Positions 27,799 to 36,642 of a stretch of 39,736 bases of DNA are shown here, one piece after another; positions within the stretch are counted from its first letter, which is position 1; the number at the start of each line of letters is the position of its first letter. Where the stretch lies: the NCBI GenBank assembly GCA_007695095.1, contig REEL01000079.1, positions 1-39,736 on the forward strand, read 5' to 3'. The stretch comes from Chitinophagaceae bacterium (GTDB lineage: Bacteria > Bacteroidota > Bacteroidia > Chitinophagales > REEL01). Position numbers and translations under genes: made by a program. The notes under the pieces are model-generated. The model was not told where the DNA came from and ran no database searches. It worked only from the letters and a program-made list of their open reading frames with translations.

Positions 27799-28407
27799 TT
27801 ATTTTGAATCAAAAAATTGATCATACTCTACTTCCACGACAATTTCATTCCTACGGTTAATAACTTGATATGGTGGGTTGTAGCCTAAAAAGCTAAAGTT
27901 TCCTTTATGTTTAATATTATTTTTTTGAAGTTGCTCAATAAGCTGTTCCTGATATTGGTTTATTTTTTTATCATTTGCCCAACCTGAAAATTTAATAACA
28001 GCCATTACTTTTTCCTTTTCTTCTATAAATTCTATTTCTTTATTATTCGGAAGGGGTAAGTCTTCTTTTGTGTAATTAGCCGGTACCATAAATCGCATTT
28101 CTGACTCTTCTCCAAAAGACATGCTTACCGGAGTTGTCATTGCAATTTTTTCTTTAGCAGCATTTCCTCCAAATATATAATCGGCCAAAATTCTAAAACC
28201 TTTGCCGGAAACCTGACTGTAGCTGTTACCTGACAAACGAATTTTAGTAAACAATGCGCTGCTGTAATGTCGAATTTCTATATCGTCAAATCGTTTTATT
28301 ACTTCGTAAGCATGTTGCTCAGTTTTATTGGATGAATTATTAACAATAAATTGAGCTGCCAGAAAGAAGGTGACTATTACAATAAACACAATTAGTAAAG
28401 TTTTCAT
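27799..28407 (-). CDS. SOUL-family heme-binding protein
   Basis: A 202-residue protein with an N-terminal membrane anchor or signal (1-24) and a SOUL domain (about 32-200). Typical stretches are YEVIKRFDDIEIRHYSSALF, GFRILADYIFGGN and KIAMTTPVSM, then FMVPANYT and a C-terminal LGYNPPYQVINRRNEIVVEV. SOUL proteins bind heme or related tetrapyrroles. The membrane N terminus suggests an exported or anchored form facing the periplasm. The gene is convergent with the second AlkD-like gene and borders the accessory region. Confidence 0.9.
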   Translation of the reverse strand: MKTLLIVFIVIVTFFLAAQFIVNNSSNKTEQHAYEVIKRFDDIEIRHYSSALFTKIRLSGNSYSQVSGKGFRILADYIFGGNAAKEKIAMTTPVSMSFGEESEMRFMVPANYTKEDLPLPNNKEIEFIEEKEKVMAVIKFSGWANDKKINQYQEQLIEQLQKNNIKHKGNFSFLGYNPPYQVINRRNEIVVEVEYDQFFDSK

Positions 28408-28472
28408 AAAAAATACATACAGAGTTAAACATCTACTTTCCTAAAAAGTTTTTTGTTTAATAAAAAAGCACC

Positions 28473-28635
28473 CCTCTGTCGCATACATCAGCATGTGACA
28501 CGATAGGCAAATTGATAATGAGTTAATTGAGTAGTTTTTGAACAATTATTTTAAATAAATTAGATTTACATGTTGATTGATGATTTTTTTACATAAAACT
28601 GCCGTATCCCAAGCGAAAGCATGCGATAGGTGGGG
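28473..28635. repeat. Palindromic repeat element, copy A (163 bp)
   Basis: Ends are imperfect inverted repeats: CCCCTCTGTCGCATAC (28471-28486) against the reverse of GCATGCGATAGGTGGGG (28619-28635). Its right arm folds as a hairpin around GAAA (28607-28630). A related copy is at 31356-31477 in the same orientation. It resembles a small non-autonomous (MITE-like) element; no target-site duplication is obvious. Confidence 0.7.
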
Positions 28636-28663
28636 AAGTTTTTAATTGTTAAATGGCTTTACT

Positions 28664-28671
28664 TATCTTTG
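28664..28671 (+). promoter_or_regulatory. Candidate promoter -7 element upstream of the Abi-family gene
   Basis: TATCTTTG with a TTG at 28646, a spacer of only 15 bases. If used it gives a ~200-base leader for the Abi-family gene. Confidence 0.3.
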
Positions 28672-28873
28672 TTAGGGGTATAAATAAGTTGGCAGCCATT
28701 TGGCTCCGTGGCAACCTATATACGTAATGAGAAATTTCGGGACAAAAAGGCAGGCTACGGGAAAAACTTGAAGTATAAAAAACAAAAAACCCCAGTTTCA
28801 TCATCCCATTTAAGAGAGAGAGGAGTTACTGAGGACTGCACACAAATATACGAAGTATTTTTAATTTTGTTGT

Positions 28874-29491
28874 ATGAATGAACAAAAAATAATTGACTCT
28901 ATCTCCCAAGAAAGATTTGATCCTTACTTAACTTTTTGTGATAGGGATAAAATAAAGGCTTTAAAACTTTATCAAAAGAATATAGAAGTTTCCCAAGCTT
29001 TTTATGCGCCATTATCAGTTTTGGAAATTACGCTAAGGAATAAAATAGATCTATCTTGTAGAGAACATTTTAAAAGTGAAAAATGGCTGACTGAAAAATT
29101 ACCACCTATCTTGCTAAAACAAGTAGTAGATATCGAAGTAAGGTTAACTAAATCAAGAAAGACAATTACGAATAGCAAAATATTAGCAGAACTGAACTTT
29201 GGTTTCTGGACAACGCTATTTAATCGGCAGTATGCGAAAATATTTTGGAAACCGTTGCACAGAATATTTCCAAATGTGCCAAAAGAAAAAAGAAAACGAA
29301 CTGAAATTTCATCCAGGCTAAATCACATTCGAACATTCAGAAATAGAATTTACCATTATGAGCCAATAATTTGGGACTTAAATGCCCTTAGACAGAAAAG
29401 TCAAGAAATCGATGAAATTACACACTGGTTAGATAATGACACTTCAGGATGGGCAAAACAATTCAACCAAATCGACAGGCTATTGGAATAA
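28874..29491 (+). CDS. Abi-family (HEPN-like) abortive infection protein
   Basis: A 205-residue helical protein of the Abi-like family (PF07751 type). The C-terminal motif RLNHIRTFRNRIYHYEPI contains R156-N157-x3-H161, the RNxxxH signature of HEPN RNases. The N-terminal part has the usual YAPLSVLEITLRNKID stretch. Relatives confer abortive infection by cutting RNA after phage infection; that role is inferred here. It sits next to a broken dinD and between two palindromic repeat copies, as expected for mobile defence cargo. Its codons are AT-rich like the host. Confidence 0.8.
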   Translation: MNEQKIIDSISQERFDPYLTFCDRDKIKALKLYQKNIEVSQAFYAPLSVLEITLRNKIDLSCREHFKSEKWLTEKLPPILLKQVVDIEVRLTKSRKTITNSKILAELNFGFWTTLFNRQYAKIFWKPLHRIFPNVPKEKRKRTEISSRLNHIRTFRNRIYHYEPIIWDLNALRQKSQEIDEITHWLDNDTSGWAKQFNQIDRLLE

Positions 29492-29563
29492 TTGAAAACG
29501 GCTGCAAAACGTTCTCATACACGCAAAACAATGGCGAGCATTTAAACAAACTAAATTTACGAC

Positions 29564-30176
29564 ATGAAGAAGGAATTGAACAGAATTATTTGAAAAATTT
29601 GAAGATGCCTGCTATGATCTTGACGGACATGAATGTTGGAGTGGTAGAGAACTACAAGAAATTTTAGGATACTCCGATTGGCGAAATTTCACCAATACAA
29701 TTCAGAAAGCTGTTAAGTCATGTGAGAACTCAGGAGAAAAGGAATCGGATCATTTTGTTGGCTTCACCAAATTGATAGAAATTGGAAAAGGTGGACAAAG
29801 AGATGTTCAAGATGTAGCCCTGACAAGGTACGCTTGCTATTTAGTAGCACAAAATGGAAATGCTTCTAAACCTGAAATAGCCTTTGCACAAACCTATTTT
29901 GCTGTCCAAACAAGAAAACAAGAGTTAATCGAACAAAGACTTCTTGATATAGCTAGAGTAAATGCTCGTGAGGAGCTTTCTAAGTCAGAAAAGAAACTTT
30001 CAGGAATCATTTATGAAAGGGGCGTTGATAATAGAAGTTTTGCAGTAATTCGCTCGAAAGGAGATCAGGCACTATACGGTGGTAAATCAACCCAATTCAT
30101 GAAAAATAAACTTGGGCTACCAACAAACAGACCACTTGTAGATTTTCTTATTCTGCTTTTCTATCAACTTCATTAA
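29564..30176 (+). pseudogene. dinD: DNA-damage-inducible protein D (dinD) remnant, frameshifted and truncated
   Basis: A clear DinD protein is spread over two frames. ATG at 29564 begins MKKEL and then meets a stop at 29591. Skipping one A at 29579-29580 gives a normal DinD start leading into FEDACYDLDGHECWSGRELQEILGYSDWRNF. The frame then continues through SDHFVGFTKLIEIGKGGQRD and ends LGLPTNRPLVDFL. The usual ~80-residue C-terminal part is missing: after DFL the frame reads a few residues out of the 3' end of the convergent yihY gene and stops at 30176. DinD proteins are SOS-induced in E. coli. Two separate lesions indicate a pseudogene. Confidence 0.85.
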
Positions 30177-31059
30177 TTTCAAATTCGACCGCATAGTCTT
30201 TGGGTTTTATATCATGTGAATACATTTTGGCAAATTGTTGTGTAATTTCTGCACCAAAGAAAAATATGAGCGAAGAATAAAACACCCATAATAAAATCAG
30301 CACGAGAGAACCTGCTGCTCCGTACATTGCACCGATATCAGCAAACTTCAGACCCAGAGTGATGATAAATTTTCCGATTACAAACAAAATTGCAGTAATA
30401 AAGGCTCCCATCCAGGTAACCCGCCATTTCATATGAACATCGGGCAGAAAACGATAGATCAAGGCGACAATCACCATAATTAGGGCAAAGTAAACGATGA
30501 AATTCCCCACTTCTACAACATAAACGGTAAGTACAGGGAGATTTTCATCCAAAAAATCTTTAAACAACGATTTAGACGCATCAATTATAAAGGATACCAA
30601 CATTACAAATCCCAGTATAAGTATCAGTCCGAAAGAGATAAGGCGGTCGTATAAGGTTCTCAGAAAATTATTTTTTGGCTTAGTCTGAATTCTCCAGATG
30701 TAATTCAGCGACCTTTGCATTACACTAAAAAAAGTGGTAGATATAAAAATGAACATGACGAACCCAACAATGGTACCGATAATACTTGTTCGTGTATCCT
30801 GAAAGTTTTCTACAATATTCCGAAGAAAAAGTGCACTTTGTTCCCCAACTAACTGATCTATTTCAGCAAAAAGTCTCGCCTGCGTTTCTTCCTGCCCAAG
30901 CAATAATCCTGCAACAGATATAATAATAATGATTAAAGGAGCCATCGCAAAAATAGCAAAGAAGGCAGTAGTACCTGCTAATTGCAGCGGATTATCCAGT
31001 TTGAATTTTCTGACAGAACGCTTCAATAACTCGAAGACCTGTTTGAATTGTTCTTTCAT
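30148..31059 (-). CDS. YihY/BrkB-family inner-membrane protein
   Basis: A 303-residue inner-membrane protein with about six helices. The N-terminal 'LAGTTAFFAIFAMAPLIIII' region, the central 'FISTTFFSVMQRSLNYIW', and 'GAMYGAAGSLVLILLWVFYSSLIFFFGAEITQ' are typical of the YihY family (PF03631; formerly called ribonuclease BN by mistake). No function is established. The last 29 bases overlap the broken dinD frame. It is likely a native gene at the edge of the accessory insertion, since dinD was truncated precisely at its end. Confidence 0.9.
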   Translation of the reverse strand: MKEQFKQVFELLKRSVRKFKLDNPLQLAGTTAFFAIFAMAPLIIIIISVAGLLLGQEETQARLFAEIDQLVGEQSALFLRNIVENFQDTRTSIIGTIVGFVMFIFISTTFFSVMQRSLNYIWRIQTKPKNNFLRTLYDRLISFGLILILGFVMLVSFIIDASKSLFKDFLDENLPVLTVYVVEVGNFIVYFALIMVIVALIYRFLPDVHMKWRVTWMGAFITAILFVIGKFIITLGLKFADIGAMYGAAGSLVLILLWVFYSSLIFFFGAEITQQFAKMYSHDIKPKDYAVEFEINEVDRKAE

Positions 31060-31152
31060 TAAAGCAATATTTCATTCATGAGTGTAAGTAATTCTGAATA
31101 TACAAAACTTTATCAATATTACACTCATTATTTGTTTTCAATCTAATTCGGG

Positions 31153-31354
31153 TGTAAGTGGATATACCGGCGGATGTTGACCACTTTGTTAAAAAAATCC
31201 GGAGCATGTTGACCACTTTAGGGAGTATAATCCGGAGCATATTGACCACCCTAATGATTAAAACGATTCATTTGTCTGAAATTTTAAAATCAGACACTTA
31301 TGGCAGGAAAACCAAAAGACATGAATCAAGTAAAACAACTTTTAATGATGCATC
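31153..31354 (+). mobile_element. Left end of an IS21-family insertion sequence, truncated in istA
   Basis: Three direct repeats with core CCGGaGCATgTTGACCAC start at 31167, 31199 and 31232 (spacing 32-33 bases), as in the transposase-binding ends of IS21 elements. An ATG at 31300 begins MAGKPKDMNQVKQLLMMH, an IstA-like N terminus. Homology stops where repeat copy B begins, and the frame stops at 31389. No right end or istB was found. The remnant is inactive. Confidence 0.75.
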
Positions 31355-31355
31355 G

Positions 31356-31477
31356 CCTCTATCGCAGACCTCCGCATGTGACACGATAGGTAAATTGATA
31401 ATGAGTTAATAGAGTAGTTTTTTGACTTTTTTGCTCAAAACTGCAGTATCCCAAGCGAAATCTTGCGATAGATGGGG
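31356..31477. repeat. Palindromic repeat element, copy B (122 bp)
   Basis: Shares both arms with copy A at 28473 but lacks ~45 internal bases. The two ends form a 9-bp perfect inverted repeat (TCTATCGCA and TGCGATAGA). The 3' hairpin shows paired base changes compared with copy A. It abuts the truncated istA start. Confidence 0.7.
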
Positions 31478-31580: not shown

Positions 31581-31713
31581 AAGCCATGAAATTTCAATAA
31601 TCAGTTAAAATTCCGGGGAATATAGAAGTTGTCGAAAATCATAGAAGTTTTACCATAAAATTACCTCAAGGTTTCTGCTGTGATTATACCTATACTCACA
31701 GAATTGGCTCATT

Positions 31714-31815
31714 CCCCTCCTTGGAGGGGTGCCCTTAGGGCGGGGTGGGTCATATCCCTCCATTGAAGAAGTGCCTCAAACTCATAATGAGTTAATATCA
31801 ATGAAAAAACAAACT
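31714..31815. repeat. GC-rich two-hairpin repeat, solo relative of the hsdR cassette flank
   Basis: CCCCTCCTTGGAGGGG (31714-31729) is followed by GCCC-TTA-GGGC, GGGGTGGGTCA, and about 60 more bases that align loosely with the left flank of the DUF559 cassette in hsdR (39137-39240), including CCTCAAA and a CTCA-TAA-TGAG hairpin. The ATG at 31801 aligns with an ATT in the hsdR cassette. The frame after it stops after ten codons. Confidence 0.65.
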
Positions 31816-32120: not shown

Positions 32121-33671
32121 ATGGCAAAAAAGAACGGAAACGGTACGCAAGAACCCTTGGAAAAACAGCTCTGGAAAACGGCAGACAAGCTGCGTAAGAA
32201 CATTGATGCTGCGGAATACAAACACGTCGTGCTTGGCTTGATTTTCCTGAAATACATCTCTGATGCATTTGAAGAACTTTATGAAAAATTGGAAGCAGGT
32301 GAAGGAGATTATGACGGTGCTGACCCGGAGGACAAGGATGAATACAAAGCAGAAAACGTCTTTTTTGTACCGGAAAAAGCCCGATGGAAATATTTGCTGT
32401 CACAGGCCAAACAGCCTAACATTGGCAAAACGGTAGATGAAGCCATGGATTTGATTGAAAAAGAAAATGCATCCTTAAAAGGCGTTTTACCAAAGGTTTA
32501 TGCCCGCCAAAATCTTGATCCCGCCAGTTTAGGTGAATTGATTGACATGATTGGAAATATCGCTTTGGGTGATGCTAAATCCCGCTCTGCTGATATTCTC
32601 GGTCACGTTTTTGAATATTTCCTCGGTGAGTTTGCTTTGGCAGAAGGCAAAAAAGGCGGACAGTTCTATACACCAAGAAGTGTAGTAGAATTACTGGTTG
32701 AAATGCTCGAACCCTATAAAGGCCGTGTATTTGACCCTTGCTGCGGTTCGGGTGGTATGTTTGTGCAATCTGAAAAATTTGTAGAAGACCATCGTGGAAA
32801 AATCAATGACATTTCCATTTACGGACAGGAAAGCAACCAAACCACCTGGCGATTGGCAAAAATGAATCTGGCTATTCGTGGGATTGACAGTTCACAGGTA
32901 AAATGGAACAACGAAGGTTCTTTTTTAAATGATGCCCACAAAGACCTGAAGGCCGACTACATCATTGCCAATCCACCTTTCAACGTAAGCGACTGGAGCG
33001 GTGAATTGCTTCGGACAGACGGACGATGGAAATATGGCACGCCACCCACAGGAAATGCCAACTATGCATGGATACAACATTTCTTATATCACTTAGCACC
33101 CAGCGGACAAGCAGGCTTTGTATTGTCAAAAGGAGCGTTGACATCCAATTCCGGTGGAGAAGGAAAGATCCGGCAGGCTTTGGTAGAAGATGATTTGATT
33201 GATTGTATTGTCAACCTGCCGGCAAAATTATTCCTCAATACACAAATTCCGGCTTGTTTATGGTTTATGAGCCGTGACCGGAGCAATCATCGTTTCCGTG
33301 ATAGGCGTGGAGAAATTCTCTTTATTGATGCCCGCAATCTCGGCCACCTGATTAACCGCCGCACAAAAGAACTTTCGCAGGAAGATATTGACCTAATTGC
33401 AAGCACTTACCACAACTGGCGGAATCCTGATGGAGACTATGCAGATGTAAAAGGCTTCTGTGCCTCTGCTCCAAAAGAGCGAGTTACAGAGCTGGGTTAT
33501 GTACTTACCCCCGGCAGATATGTAGGTTTGGCTGATGAAGCAGATGATTTTGATTTTACGGAACGCTTCAGCAGTTTGAAAGCTGAGTTTGAAAAGCAAT
33601 TGGCAGAAGAGGCGGAGTTGAATAAACGTATTGCTGAGAACCTTTCTAAAATTGTGTTGAAAGATGAATAG
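32121..33671 (+). CDS. hsdM: Type I restriction-modification DNA methyltransferase subunit (HsdM)
   Basis: A 516-residue N6-adenine methyltransferase. An N-terminal HsdM_N helical domain (~12-150; [31 protein letters not shown]) is followed by the N6_Mtase domain with SAM motif [10 protein letters not shown] (Asp205 on) and catalytic NPPF (284-287). HsdM works with HsdS to methylate the recognition site and is part of the HsdR2M2S restriction complex. Codons are visibly richer in G and C than in the core genes and in the neighbouring rhuM-like gene. It is the first gene of the defence operon, and its 3' end overlaps the next ATG by 8 bases. Confidence 0.97.
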
Positions 33672-34536
33672 CAAAAACGAAATAATACTATATCAATCTG
33701 ATGAATTGCCAGAGCATATAGAGGTAAGACTGGAGGACGAAACCATTTGGCTGACACAGCAACAAATCGTAGAACTTTTTGAGAGCAGTAAAGCCAACAT
33801 TAGCGAGCACATCAAACATATTTTTGAGTCAGGAGAGCTGATAGAAAATTCAACTGTTCGGAATTTCCGAATAGTTCGTATGGAAGGCAACAGGGAGGTA
33901 AGTAGAGAATTGCAGCACTATAGCTTGGATGTCATTATATCAGTGGGTTACCGGGTAAACTCCAAGAGAGGTACACAATTTCGAATTTGGGCTAATCAAG
34001 TACTCAAAGACCACTTGCTCAAAGGGTACTCCATTGCAAAACGAATTGACAGGATAGAAGAAAATGTACAGGGGTTAATAGGACGAGTGAGTGAAATTGA
34101 TGTGCAAATAAATGCCAGCCTGCCACCTAAACAAGGCATTTTTTACGATGGGCAAGTTTTTGATGCCTATGTGTTTGTAGCTAATCTTGTAAAATCAGCA
34201 AAAAAATCAATTTTGCTGATAGATAATTATATTGATGAAAGTGTATTGGAACTCTTTACCAAACGACATAAACAGGTAACGGTAAAAATTTATACCAAAA
34301 CCATTTCTAAAACGCTCAAGCAAGATGTAGAAAAACACAACGCACAATATCCCTACATTGAAATAGAAAAATTTACTAAAGCCCACGATCGCTTTTTAAT
34401 TATTGACGAATGCACCGTTTATCACTTTGGAGCAAGTCTCAAAGACCTGGGCAAAAAATGGTTTGCCTTCTCGAAAATGAACAGCATGACAAAAGATATA
34501 ATACGAAAATTAAAGAAAGGAGGGGATGATGAGTGA
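33664..34536 (+). CDS. RhuM-family protein with C-terminal PLD-like domain
   Basis: A 290-residue protein. The N-terminal RhuM domain (~17-125) shows [30 protein letters not shown] (winged-helix-like DNA-binding look), then [24 protein letters not shown] short coiled segment (126-150) leads to a C-terminal domain (~160-285) with LLIDNYID and HDRFLIID (241-248), then [14 protein letters not shown], a phospholipase-D-like nucleic-acid binding or cleaving pattern with one HxR...D motif. RhuM genes are often embedded in type I RM operons; their role is unproven. It overlaps hsdM (8 bases) and hsdS (11 bases), so it is translationally coupled to both. Confidence 0.85.
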
Positions 34537-35656
34537 GTGGAAAGAAGTGAAGTTAGAAGATATAACTATACGTATTGGAGATGGTCTGCACGGTACGCCT
34601 GAATACGATTCTGAAGGAGAATACTATTTTATTAATGGAAACAATTTAAAAGACGGGAAAATATTAATTAAGAATGACACCAAAAAAGTAACCAAGGAAG
34701 TAGCTAAAAAGCATGAAAAACCCCTATCTGAAAAAACAATATTACTCGCTATAAATGGTACAATTGGGAATCTTGCATTCTATAATTCAGAAAAATGTAT
34801 GCTCGGCAAAAGTGCCTGCTACATTAATATAACTGACCAAACTGATGTTCAATTTATGTATTACCATTTTTTGAATGAAGACTTTCAATTTTATCTTGAA
34901 ATGATTGCAACTGGAACAACAATCCCTAATGTTCCCTTAAAAGAAATACGTAAATACACTTTTAATCTCCCCCCTCTTCCCGAACAACGCGCCATCGCTT
35001 CCGTCCTTTCCAGCTTAGACGACAAAATAGACATGCTGCACCGCCAAAACCAAACTCTGGAGCAAATGGCGGAGACGCTGTTTCGGCAGTGGTTTGTGGT
35101 GGAAGCGGATGAGGGGTGGAAGGAAGGAGTTTTGGGAGATTTAGTTGATGTAAAATATGGAAAAGATCATAAAAAGCTTGCTGATGGCCAGATACCAGTT
35201 TATGGTTCAGGTGGTTTAATGCGTAAGGTCAATAAATCCATCTTTGAAGGTGAATCAGTATTAATACCTCGAAAAGGTAGTCTGAATAATGTTATGTATG
35301 TTGATGAACCCTTTTGGACAGTGGATACGATGTTTTATACTGTCATGAAAAAGAGTAACCTCGCAAAGTTTATATACCAATTCATTAAGAAAAAAGATTT
35401 ATCTTCAATGAATGTTGGATCAGCTGTACCAAGCATGACCACCAAAGTGTTAAATAATATGCCAATTGGAATACCACCTGATGATGTAGTATCAGAATTT
35501 GAAAAAATGGTATCTCCTTTCTACAATAAAATTAAAACTAACAAAACCCAAATCCGCACCCTCACCGCTTTGCGTGATGCATTATTGCCGAAGTTGATGA
35601 GTGGGGAGGTGCGAATTATAAATGAGTTATTTATTGAAAACGAACCTATTAAATAA
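34526..35656 (+). CDS. hsdS: Type I restriction-modification specificity subunit (HsdS)
   Basis: A 376-residue protein with two target recognition domains separated by conserved helices. TRD1 covers about 1-155 and ends with FNLPPLPEQRAIASVLSSLDDKIDMLHRQN, the first spacer helix. TRD2 covers about 200-340 and ends with the second helix TLTALRDALLPKLMSGEV. HsdS sets the DNA sequence recognised by the HsdM/HsdR complex. Start codons at 34526 or 34529 are both possible. It overlaps the rhuM-like gene, and its stop overlaps the ATG of the Mrr-like gene (TAATG). Confidence 0.96.
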   Translation: MMSEWKEVKLEDITIRIGDGLHGTPEYDSEGEYYFINGNNLKDGKILIKNDTKKVTKEVAKKHEKPLSEKTILLAINGTIGNLAFYNSEKCMLGKSACYINITDQTDVQFMYYHFLNEDFQFYLEMIATGTTIPNVPLKEIRKYTFNLPPLPEQRAIASVLSSLDDKIDMLHRQNQTLEQMAETLFRQWFVVEADEGWKEGVLGDLVDVKYGKDHKKLADGQIPVYGSGGLMRKVNKSIFEGESVLIPRKGSLNNVMYVDEPFWTVDTMFYTVMKKSNLAKFIYQFIKKKDLSSMNVGSAVPSMTTKVLNNMPIGIPPDDVVSEFEKMVSPFYNKIKTNKTQIRTLTALRDALLPKLMSGEVRIINELFIENEPIK

Positions 35657-36642
35657 TGGCGAAAAATAAAAACATAGAATTATATTGTGTAAGAGCTGAA
35701 TTTGGAACCTATACTCAACATTTTCTTGATGGTGGATATATAGGTATTGGTTGGCTGCCCGACAACAACCTCTCGAATATTCAAACCCGTGATGAATTAT
35801 ACCCGCTATACAAAACCGCTTACCCAAAAGACACAAGCAATGTAGTAATTGGTCAACAGGTAGGGCAAATCGCTCGCTTTCTTTTGGAAATCACCTCTGG
35901 AGATTATGTGATTACACCTGCTCTGAACACAGAATATATTTACTATGGAATAGTAGAGGAAAACTCCTACTTTTTTGACAATGGCTCTGATGGATGCCCA
36001 TTCTTACATCGTAAAAAAGTAAAGTGGAATAAAGAACCCATTCAAAGAAGTCAATTCTCTGTTCCTTTTCAAAATACCATCCGGTCTTCGCTAACTGTAT
36101 TTTATATCTCCCATAAAAAGAATTTTTTTACAACAATCGGAAAACCCCAACTTGTTCCTGAGAGCGACCAAAAACTGGAGGACAACTACTATATTTCAAT
36201 TTTAAACCGTATTTTAGAATTAGATGATAAAGAATTTGAAATTTTAATTACCCATATATTAAATGCACTCGGTTTTGAAGGTTCAGAACATACCGGGAAA
36301 ATAGGAGATGGTGGAGTAGATGCAACAGGCGAACTGAATGTGGCAAATATGGCTAAAATAAAGTTGTTTGTGCAAGCCAAACGCTACAAGCTGGGGTCAA
36401 GGATATCTGCCAATGTTGTAAAAGCATTACGTGCCAACATCCCTTCGGGAGGTCAAGGAGCATTTATCACCACAGCGGATTTTCAGAAAAAAGCAAAAGA
36501 AATTGCTATTGAAACAGGTTTTCCGAGAATCGGTCTAATTGATGGTGAACAACTGGTTGACATTTTAGCAGAACACTGGAATAATATACCAAATGATTTT
36601 AAAGAAAAATTGGAATTAAAGACAGGATTGATTCCAAGTTAA
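35656..36642 (+). CDS. Mrr-type restriction endonuclease with an N-terminal accessory domain
   Basis: A 328-residue protein. The C-terminal Mrr_cat domain (~188-310) begins FEILITHILNALGFEG and has the PD-(D/E)xK-type residues Asp218/Asp222 (GDGGVD) and the QxK motif of Mrr (FVQAKRY, Gln240/Lys242), then GGQGAFITTADF. The N-terminal ~165 residues (CVRAEFGTYTQHFLDGGYIGIGW, SGDYVITPAL, YIYYGIVEE) look like a PUA/EVE-type fold that could read modified bases. That assignment is an inference. Mrr enzymes cut methylated DNA. It is coupled to hsdS by a one-base overlap, unusual for a type IV enzyme. Confidence 0.87.
   Translation: MAKNKNIELYCVRAEFGTYTQHFLDGGYIGIGWLPDNNLSNIQTRDELYPLYKTAYPKDTSNVVIGQQVGQIARFLLEITSGDYVITPALNTEYIYYGIVEENSYFFDNGSDGCPFLHRKKVKWNKEPIQRSQFSVPFQNTIRSSLTVFYISHKKNFFTTIGKPQLVPESDQKLEDNYYISILNRILELDDKEFEILITHILNALGFEGSEHTGKIGDGGVDATGELNVANMAKIKLFVQAKRYKLGSRISANVVKALRANIPSGGQGAFITTADFQKKAKEIAIETGFPRIGLIDGEQLVDILAEHWNNIPNDFKEKLELKTGLIPS

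Follow-up and report, generated by a model that had tools for sequence, protein, structure and literature searches.

Results

Elements A and B

The DNA analyzed here, referred to as the window, is a stretch of 39,736 nucleotides (nt) from a Chitinophagaceae bacterium (assembly GCA_007695095.1, contig REEL01000079.1, positions 1 to 39,736 of the forward strand), and it carries two related palindromic elements, A and B. The preliminary description of this DNA had reported them as two copies in direct orientation about 2.9 kb apart; this was confirmed, with extents of 28471-28635 for A and 31356-31477 for B, both on the plus strand, and terminal inverted repeats are present in both (CCCCTCTGTCGCA.. 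versus ..TGCGATAGGTGGGG in A, CCTCTATCGCA.. versus ..TGCGATAGATGGGG in B). Based on alignment and a genome search, we read A as a doublet of repetitive extragenic palindromic (REP) sequences that encloses the stump of a REP-associated tyrosine transposase (RAYT) gene, that is, as a nonautonomous element similar to REPINs (inverted REP pairs forming one unit) and to miniature inverted-repeat transposable elements (MITEs), and B as a member of the same family. In what follows, C denotes contigs of the bacterium's own genome (G000; the A/B pair is on C79), L denotes loci, and G denotes genomes.

Including their C- and G-rich tracts, A measures 165 nt and B 122 nt, with about 41 nt from the middle of A missing from B. 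The left 67 nt of A (28473-28539) are 91% identical to the corresponding part of B (31356-31422) and the right 75 nt are 77% identical; overall, identity is 83% over 132 columns. Of all the aligned copies, A is most similar to B and vice versa, with the copy on C182 nearly as close (78% and 79% to A and B). In a whole-genome search with A as the query, B was matched with an E value of 1.5e-20; the resemblance is therefore not due to chance. Within A, the left REP (CTGTCGCATACATCAGCATGTGACAC, 28476-28501, plus strand, located by the REP pattern) has decayed inner pairs and is followed by the RAYT 3'-end stump, GAT AAT GAG TTA ATT GAG TAG (28514-28534, plus strand), which reads DNELIE* where C80 reads DIELIE; this frame was taken from the alignment to C80 and C162 and is too short to be identified by itself. 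An AT-rich stretch that aligns with other copies comes next (28535-28603, plus strand), possibly what was once the 3' untranslated region belonging to the RAYT unit, and a degenerate right REP on the minus strand closes the element (CTATCGCATGCTTTCGCTTGGGATAC, 28604-28629). The same parts are found in B: a left REP (CTATCGCAGACCTCCGCATGTGACAC, 31359-31384, plus strand), a stump read from the alignment only (GAT AAT GAG TTA ATA GAG TAG, DNELIE*, 31397-31417, plus strand), and a right REP on the minus strand (CTATCGCAAGATTTCGCTTGGGATAC, 31446-31471).

A dispersed family in the genome

The search with A found copies on C182, C83 (two, C83a and C83b), C136, C80, C88, C161, and C162 and partial copies on C20 and C39; of its weaker rows, that on C151 alone was used, since it was also recovered by the REP pattern. 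With up to three mismatches, the left-REP pattern occurs at 19 sites in the genome (11 forward and 8 reverse), compared with none for the reversed control pattern. In A, C83b, C80, and C136 the pattern was found at both ends and in B, C88, and C162 at the left end; the other sites are solitary REPs on C20, C151, C177, C163, C180, C75, C92, and C136. Counting the pattern sites together with C182, C161, and C39 gives 18 distinct places, elements and solitary half-copies alike, on 15 of the 186 contigs. The preliminary description had named the lack of further copies, together with a lack of expression, as the outcome that would speak against it; copies were found, so that half of this outcome did not occur.

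Ten places can be aligned with their spacer (nine if C162 and C83a are counted as a single copy split between contigs), and the parts stand in the same order and orientation throughout: often a C-rich tract, a left hairpin, a spacer, an inverted hairpin, and often a G-rich tract. In a complete copy, a spacer of 61 to 239 nt thus separates two REP hairpins that face each other (about CTRTCGCAAGCGTCCGCTTGTGAYAC and its inverse). Both REPs are seen in A (spacer of 102 nt), B (61 nt), C83b (125 nt), C136 (149 nt), and C80 (239 nt); the left end of C182 is truncated, and C88 and C162 are cut by contig ends. The left hairpin is near CTRTCGCA[A/G/T]GCGTCCGC[T/C/A]TGTGAYAC, and the clean form of the right hairpin is GTATCACAAGCGGACGCTTGCGATAG, the right REP of C136. 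Several copies are located at contig ends. The last bases of C162 and the first bases of C83 share 55 identical positions within the element, the pattern produced when an assembly is interrupted at a repeat; the contigs may therefore lack further near-identical copies and even a complete unit.

A pattern taken from the AT-rich stretch and built to fit six of the genome's own copies, TTTTTGAACAAN{12,20}RATTTACATGTT, had 0 matches in genome_contigs and viral_contigs (it is an exact pattern, which misses diverged copies), and 181 nt of A used as a query in distant mode had no match in the plasmid collection. A DNA search with the C80 element gave matches in 11 of 99 genomes, its own included; those elsewhere were REPs or short pieces, among them a broken RAYT in G058 (L052) and the end of another gene in G095 (L055). 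The C83b spacer matched 5 of 396 genomes of the order, again with its own included. By eye, the four other matches reflect AT-rich similarity, and the only one of them that was translated (L217) has no RAYT frame.

Another abundant repeat, about 270 nt long and not related to the family (..ATCGCGKCTGAATTCCTCC..), was observed at C92:14593-14831 (L155) and C136:32379-32729 (L156/L219). It accounted for 32 of the 34 matches in one search, in which 40 of 77 candidates were scored. In two cases a solitary left REP lies upstream of it in the same orientation, at about 26 and 35 nt.

A RAYT-gene stump in the spacer

The longest spacer, that of C80, holds an open frame (..KAEIVLHKENFIWSSARDYAGRRGYIDIELIE..) that aligns with residues 141-181 of the 182-residue RAYT protein of locus L054 (39% identity, E = 1.9e-4, one internal TAA). 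RAYT genes were also collected by an alignment scan of 84,980 species genomes, which gave 201 relatives; the best 80 were kept and fetched, and eight were then dropped because the frame was broken, cut, or of odd length. A hidden Markov model (HMM) of the 72 complete RAYTs gave E = 6.5e-7 for the C80 open frame, which it matches over positions 144-181 of 182; the best E among 2996 frames of mononucleotide-shuffled sequence was 0.65. The C80 stump thus corresponds to the last ~40 residues of a RAYT.

The alignment of the ten places extends this tail to C162/C83a (..DYAGRKGYIDIELLE*) and C83b (..DYAGRKGKIELLE*). Among the remaining copies, C88 has lost one base, C136 is altered, A and B are shortened to DNELIE* (about six codons), C182 is scrambled, C161 has the 3' part only, and C180 has the first codons only. 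The calls in C83b, C88, C162, C180, A, and B come from the DNA alignment. C83b, C88, C162, and C180 have a common left junction, GTGACA[CT][AG]T[AG]CG[AG]TTATGC (GTGACACATACGATTATGC, GTGACACGTACGGTTATGC, GTGACACGTGCGATTATGC, and GTGACATGTGCGATTATGC, respectively), and their outer flanks look unrelated by eye; a second left junction, CACGATAGG, is common to A, B, and C182, and C80 has a longer stump with extra sequence that includes a second small palindrome. One junction at places with unrelated-looking flanks indicates that the shortened forms were themselves copied, in at least two classes. C80 retains both ends and a piece of the parental gene, as internal deletion would leave them; for the other copies, the same is read from the alignment.

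REP-RAYT-REP units in other Bacteroidota

At three loci in genomes of the same order (L050, L051, and L054), a RAYT gene lies between inverted REPs of the A/B type, the left REP of L054 being a variant. Most of the best 80 of the 201 relatives are titled Bacteroidota, with a few exceptions, e.g., Balneolaceae, Chlorobiota, and Thalassovita. For the 72 complete loci, we compared the 250 nt upstream of the gene with the inverted 250 nt downstream and recorded the longest exact match. It reached at least 17 nt at 40 of the 72 loci, versus 16 in direct orientation and 0 after shuffling; the direct matches are explained by the REP being nearly palindromic. The 18-nt core CGCAAGCGTCCGCTTGTG, with up to three mismatches, was present in both flanks at 12 loci and in the downstream flank only at 3, and the core was found 37 times in all, with 31 instances facing inward, like those in A and B, and 6 in the opposite orientation. 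At the 40 loci with a long inverted match, 33 of the 80 outer REP edges (20 nt each) have three or more consecutive C, versus 12.5% of random 20-nt stretches from the same flanks.

The proteins of L054, L050, and L064 all match Pfam Y1_Tnp, and L050 and L064 score above the cutoff of NCBIfam REP_Tyr_transpos; phmmer found no PDB chain for L050. In the set of 72, WQ occurs in 69, SSA in 69, and Y[ILV][HRK].NP in 67, but NH.H in only 21, with SH.H in 49 and neither in 2. The C80 stump covers the SS part of these motifs only. By their motifs, the frequent SH.H apart, these RAYTs appear nearest to subclass 2.6 (Bertels group 5).

No full-length RAYT with the tail or the REP of A/B was found in the family's own genome. 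A PF01797 search of that genome gave two genes, and a search with RAYT protein gave six places, including the C80 stump. Apart from this stump, none has the tail or the REP of A/B: C49, C31, and C123 each hold the C-terminal part of a RAYT with a different tail, and the gene on C90 is another Y1 gene. The RAYT on C101 is the most similar to the query in this genome and has another REP type; it is a full gene (C101:2935-3758, L064) between identical 30-nt inverted REPs (CACTGTCCGTAGCG...). None of the Y1 genes with an open frame in this genome (C101, C173, and C90) was seen between REPs of the A/B type, which were observed beside RAYTs in other genomes only.

The C101 gene belongs to a second RAYT/REP family that also includes the C-terminal pieces C49:1-230 (L066), C31:1-170 (L069), and C123:41122-41307 (L065); two of these pieces are at contig starts and are followed by REPs of the CCGGTAGCGGGGGCG.. 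type. By eye, the Y1 genes on C173 and C90 are surrounded by other repeats, and the one at C90:2509-2940 (L067) is flanked by CAACCTTGCGGGTT, perhaps a further REP type.

A parallel case was encountered in a RAYT protein search of 27 genomes, which returned full genes and many pieces. In Pedobacter sp. UBA4863 (L082, G110), the 5' end of a RAYT recurs at five places (three on its contig C28 and one each on C61 and C56), with a left REP ahead of it in four and absent in one; one of the five is incomplete. At L190 (C61), a pair of inverted REPs encloses 54 codons, and the genome also has a full RAYT on C27, 88% identical to the query piece over the common part. In addition, a weak match to a RAYT C terminus (E = 0.007) adjoins REPs in G107 (L195). 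Fifteen partial, mostly end-only, matches were viewed, namely the five of Pedobacter, L195, and nine others; the nine others, viewed by eye, include no clean REP-fragment-REP doublet. The Pedobacter genome also contains a 70-nt hairpin repeat (CTACATAAAGCC..TTTGTGTAG; C28, C56, C8, and C5), which occurs alone or fused to RAYT 5' pieces.

Conservation of the hairpin and its foot

Across 21 REPs of the genome, 84.8% of cells are paired, 19 cells are changed on both sides, and the covariation score is 0.211, values that none of 500 shuffles reached; the pairing was taken from the consensus, and the kinship of the sequences makes the shuffles a lenient control. Pair 9-18 is A-T in 7, G-C in 6, and T-A in 5, and pair 3-24 is G-C in 9 and A-T in 7. 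A G-T wobble at pair 6-21, conserved in 18 of the 21, is almost all that distinguishes the two directions of this palindromic stem; in 9 REPs the innermost pair is broken. The picture was the same for 33 hand-picked REPs that included RAYT-flanking ones, with three measures above all 500 shuffles. The covariation is a property of the family only. The preliminary description had seen a compensating change in the right hairpin, with an A-A mismatch becoming A-T, and this did not hold up: the A-A of A is decay and B keeps the A-T common in the family, since other right REPs, such as that of C136, have A-T there and the loss in A is thus one-sided.

At the foot of the REP, CT is present in 19 of the 21 copies; the GTAG foot of GTAG-type REPs is absent, and CT is the conserved foot. 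The TnpA-REP enzymes that have been studied cut at a CT beside the REP (PMC8266576), which makes the CT foot here a candidate cutting site. No target-site duplication was evident by eye around the elements. None is expected for enzymes of the Y1/HUH class.

Discussion

Origin of A and B

We put at about 0.84 the probability that A and B are old, decayed, nonautonomous REP doublets that arose from a REP-RAYT-REP unit by internal deletion and were moved in trans by a RAYT. On this account, the unit would have lost most of its gene through internal deletion in at least three forms: C80 with about 40 codons, C83b/C88/C162/C180 starting from the DYAG codons, and A/B/C182 with fewer. The shortened units would then have spread in trans, a RAYT cutting single-stranded DNA at the hairpin foot (CT) and joining it elsewhere, as has been proposed for REPINs (PMC3116915). 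The cognate RAYT may since have been lost or may have escaped assembly, and A and B are therefore probably immobile now. The MITE-like nature suggested in the preliminary description is thus supported and can be refined to that of a REP doublet derived from a RAYT unit.

A number of our results weigh against this account. First, no full-length RAYT with the tail or the REP of A/B was found in the assembly, which is 98.6% complete, so that movement in trans is something we infer; the copies are 58-88% identical to one another, the C162/C83a overlap apart, and recent movement is therefore not demonstrated. The closest relatives compared are of the same order, and no empty site for A or B could be read from them. 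Second, the C80 frame, of 55 residues, matches no Pfam family and, having lost its stop, continues for 15 residues beyond the RAYT end; the C162 stump by itself does not match the RAYT HMM significantly (E = 3.5), and those of A, B, and C182 are too short or too scrambled to be identified by themselves. Third, among the RAYT loci themselves, 57 of 72 have the 18-nt core in neither flank (some of these have variant REPs such as CGCAAGCGTCTCGCTTGTG), and L054 scores 75.2 bits with REP_Tyr_transpos, below the cutoff of 80. Fourth, a single Pedobacter piece of the five is clearly closed by a right REP; two of the C28 pieces run into the 70-nt repeat that also occurs alone, and since these two copies end in this separate repeat, L190 is the sole clean doublet there. 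Fifth, when A and B are folded as DNA, their stability does not exceed that of dinucleotide-shuffled sequence (z = -0.55 and -0.89), and in both alignments two of the five covariation measures do not exceed shuffles, namely the pairs changed on both sides and the further pair types (3 and 7 in the set of 21 REPs). Finally, the layout could also have come about through insertion of a REP into a RAYT gene, as PMC6006769 reports for subclass 2.4.

The segment between A and B

The two elements enclose a segment that the preliminary description took to be an insertion with A and B at its edges. It contains a 205-aa open reading frame (ORF), called Abi-like in that description, and a 134-aa ORF, called a DinD-like fragment, neither of which has a Pfam match, as well as yihY (Pfam BrkB), an ordinary chromosomal gene, and what we take to be IS21-like remnants. 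The latter include a short frame read by hand on the plus strand (31300-31358, MAGKPKDMNQVKQLLMMHR..), presumably the istA start of an IS21, which is ended by element B. Shortly before B are also three tandem 33-nt repeats (31164-31261, CCGGAGCATGTTGACCACTTT...), which look to us like IS21-type end repeats. Beyond B, a C-/G-rich palindromic stretch (31710-31750, CCCCTCCTTGGAGGGGTGCCCTTAGGGCGGGGTGGG) may be another dispersed hairpin repeat, and 32121-36642 holds ORFs of 516, 376, and 328 aa, with a 290-aa ORF inside. By eye, we take this to be a type I restriction-like operon, with HsdM-like (516 aa), HsdS-like (376 aa), and Mrr-like (328 aa) products, and the 290-aa ORF to be RhuM-like. On C20 (L016), a similar-looking frame runs into a solitary REP of the family.

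It seems to us improbable that A and B bound a composite unit some 2.9 kb long, comprising Abi, the DinD fragment, yihY, and the IS21 remnant, which was inserted as a whole or moves as one. In its favor, the two are in direct orientation around defense-like and IS-remnant genes and are mutual best matches, and there are three pairs of family members within 3 kb of each other, each in the same orientation (C79, 2.9 kb; C83, 0.85 kb; C136, 0.4 kb), compared with 0.26 expected (P of about 0.0025, the 3-kb distance having been chosen after A and B were seen). However, 12 of the 15 contigs have a single family place, although several of these places are near contig ends, where a partner could have been cut off; A and B are 83% identical only, with C182 nearly as close, and differ by the 41-nt deletion; and the enclosed segment includes the ordinary yihY gene. 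The clustering does not make the 2.9 kb a unit either, because the other pairs enclose different and much shorter stretches of 0.85 and 0.4 kb. It may reflect local movement, favored regions, or, given the shared orientation, a strand-specific enzyme; equal orientation would fit a RAYT acting on one strand of the replication fork. IS200/IS605 enzymes act in this way. The reading of A and B as edges of an inserted segment is thus not supported; we regard them as two insertions separated by 2.9 kb, with no demonstration that they form the ends of one transposon. For the window itself, this means that the repeats are scattered parasites and that there is no firm reason to treat the intervening segment as a mobile cassette.

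It is similarly improbable that the repeats are structured noncoding RNAs, as the preliminary description had also suggested, or elements acting at the transcript level, such as terminators or RNA-stabilizing hairpins. Such roles have been hypothesized for REPs in general (PMC3733652), and the hairpin does covary across the family. However, an Rfam scan of the window gave 0 matches, neither the four end hairpins folded singly nor A and B as wholes are significantly more stable than shuffles, and the longer ORFs around both are divergent (27799-28407 on the minus strand and 28874 on the plus strand around A; 30148-31059 on the minus strand and 32121 on the plus strand around B), an arrangement in which a terminator is not expected. 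Similar hairpins stand beside RAYT genes as single-strand DNA signals, and these account for the covariation at the DNA level.

The least probable explanation, that REPs landed separately inside a RAYT gene or beside an unrelated repeat and that the result was then copied, draws on the solitary REPs (C20, C39, C151, C177, C163, and C75) and on the two left REPs ~26 and 35 nt upstream of the unrelated abundant repeat, but it is countered by the spacer of the fullest copy, a RAYT C terminus that ends at the right place, by the constant order and orientation of the aligned copies, and by the intact REP-RAYT-REP units of relatives.

Relation to known systems

Doublets with a RAYT stump are the intermediates that would be predicted if REPINs arise from RAYT units, and they bear on the origin of REPINs. 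We tentatively suggest, at somewhat less than even odds, that RAYT units of subclass 2.6 in Bacteroidota still act as small autonomous transposons and repeatedly shed REP doublets through internal deletion, in which case REPIN families would start out as MITEs derived from RAYT units; the present genome, in which the 3' end was kept, and Pedobacter sp. UBA4863, in which the 5' end was kept, would then be two independent births. Should this be true of more genomes, both the origin and the direction of the process could be read from sequence, in a subclass with "atypical" REPs. The A/B family would offer a hint, in fossil form, of the way in which a class of miniature transposons can originate in bacteria. 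In the literature searched, in which subscription journals are mostly uncovered and which includes PMC6006769, PMC3733652, PMC8266576, PMC2817692, and PMC3116915, no report of RAYT-gene remnants inside REP doublets was found. The main text of PMC6006769 does not use the words truncated, remnant, internal deletion, or non-autonomous (0 occurrences).

In several respects the elements resemble MITEs, which derive from insertion sequences by internal deletion, with their terminal inverted repeats, a stump of the parental transposase, and the spread of a shortened form; unlike in MITEs, their ends are hairpins and the parental enzyme would be of the Y1 (HUH) type, which acts on single strands. The Y1 transposase family and the terminal hairpins are shared with IS200/IS605 elements such as IS608. 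The ends of IS608 are not inverted repeats of each other, whereas the hairpins here face each other as inverted REPs. The RAYTs collected here resemble subclass 2.6 of the RAYT/TnpA-REP proteins in that most have the WQ, Y[IL]HxNP, and SS motifs, most come from Bacteroidota records, and many have inverted flanking hairpins. For this subclass of Bacteroidetes, PMC6006769 gives the motifs NH[LIV]H, WQ, YIH[QN]NP, and SS and describes "atypical secondary structures" in the flanks of the genes, with copies elsewhere in the genome; 49 of our 72 RAYTs differ in having SH.H instead of NH[LIV]H. The elements are also like the REPINs of Pseudomonas and other bacteria, in which, according to PMC3116915, an inverted REP pair likewise forms the unit, several copies occur together with singlets, REPs flank the RAYT gene, and movement is thought to be provided in trans by the RAYT. 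The family differs from them in its copy number (about ten here versus 430 REP doublets in P. fluorescens SBW25; PMC3116915), in its CT start without a GTAG foot, in having no RAYT partner visible in the assembly, and in the RAYT end held by its fullest spacers. The family is of a known kind, REPINs of RAYT subclass 2.6, and the transposase stump is its unusual part.

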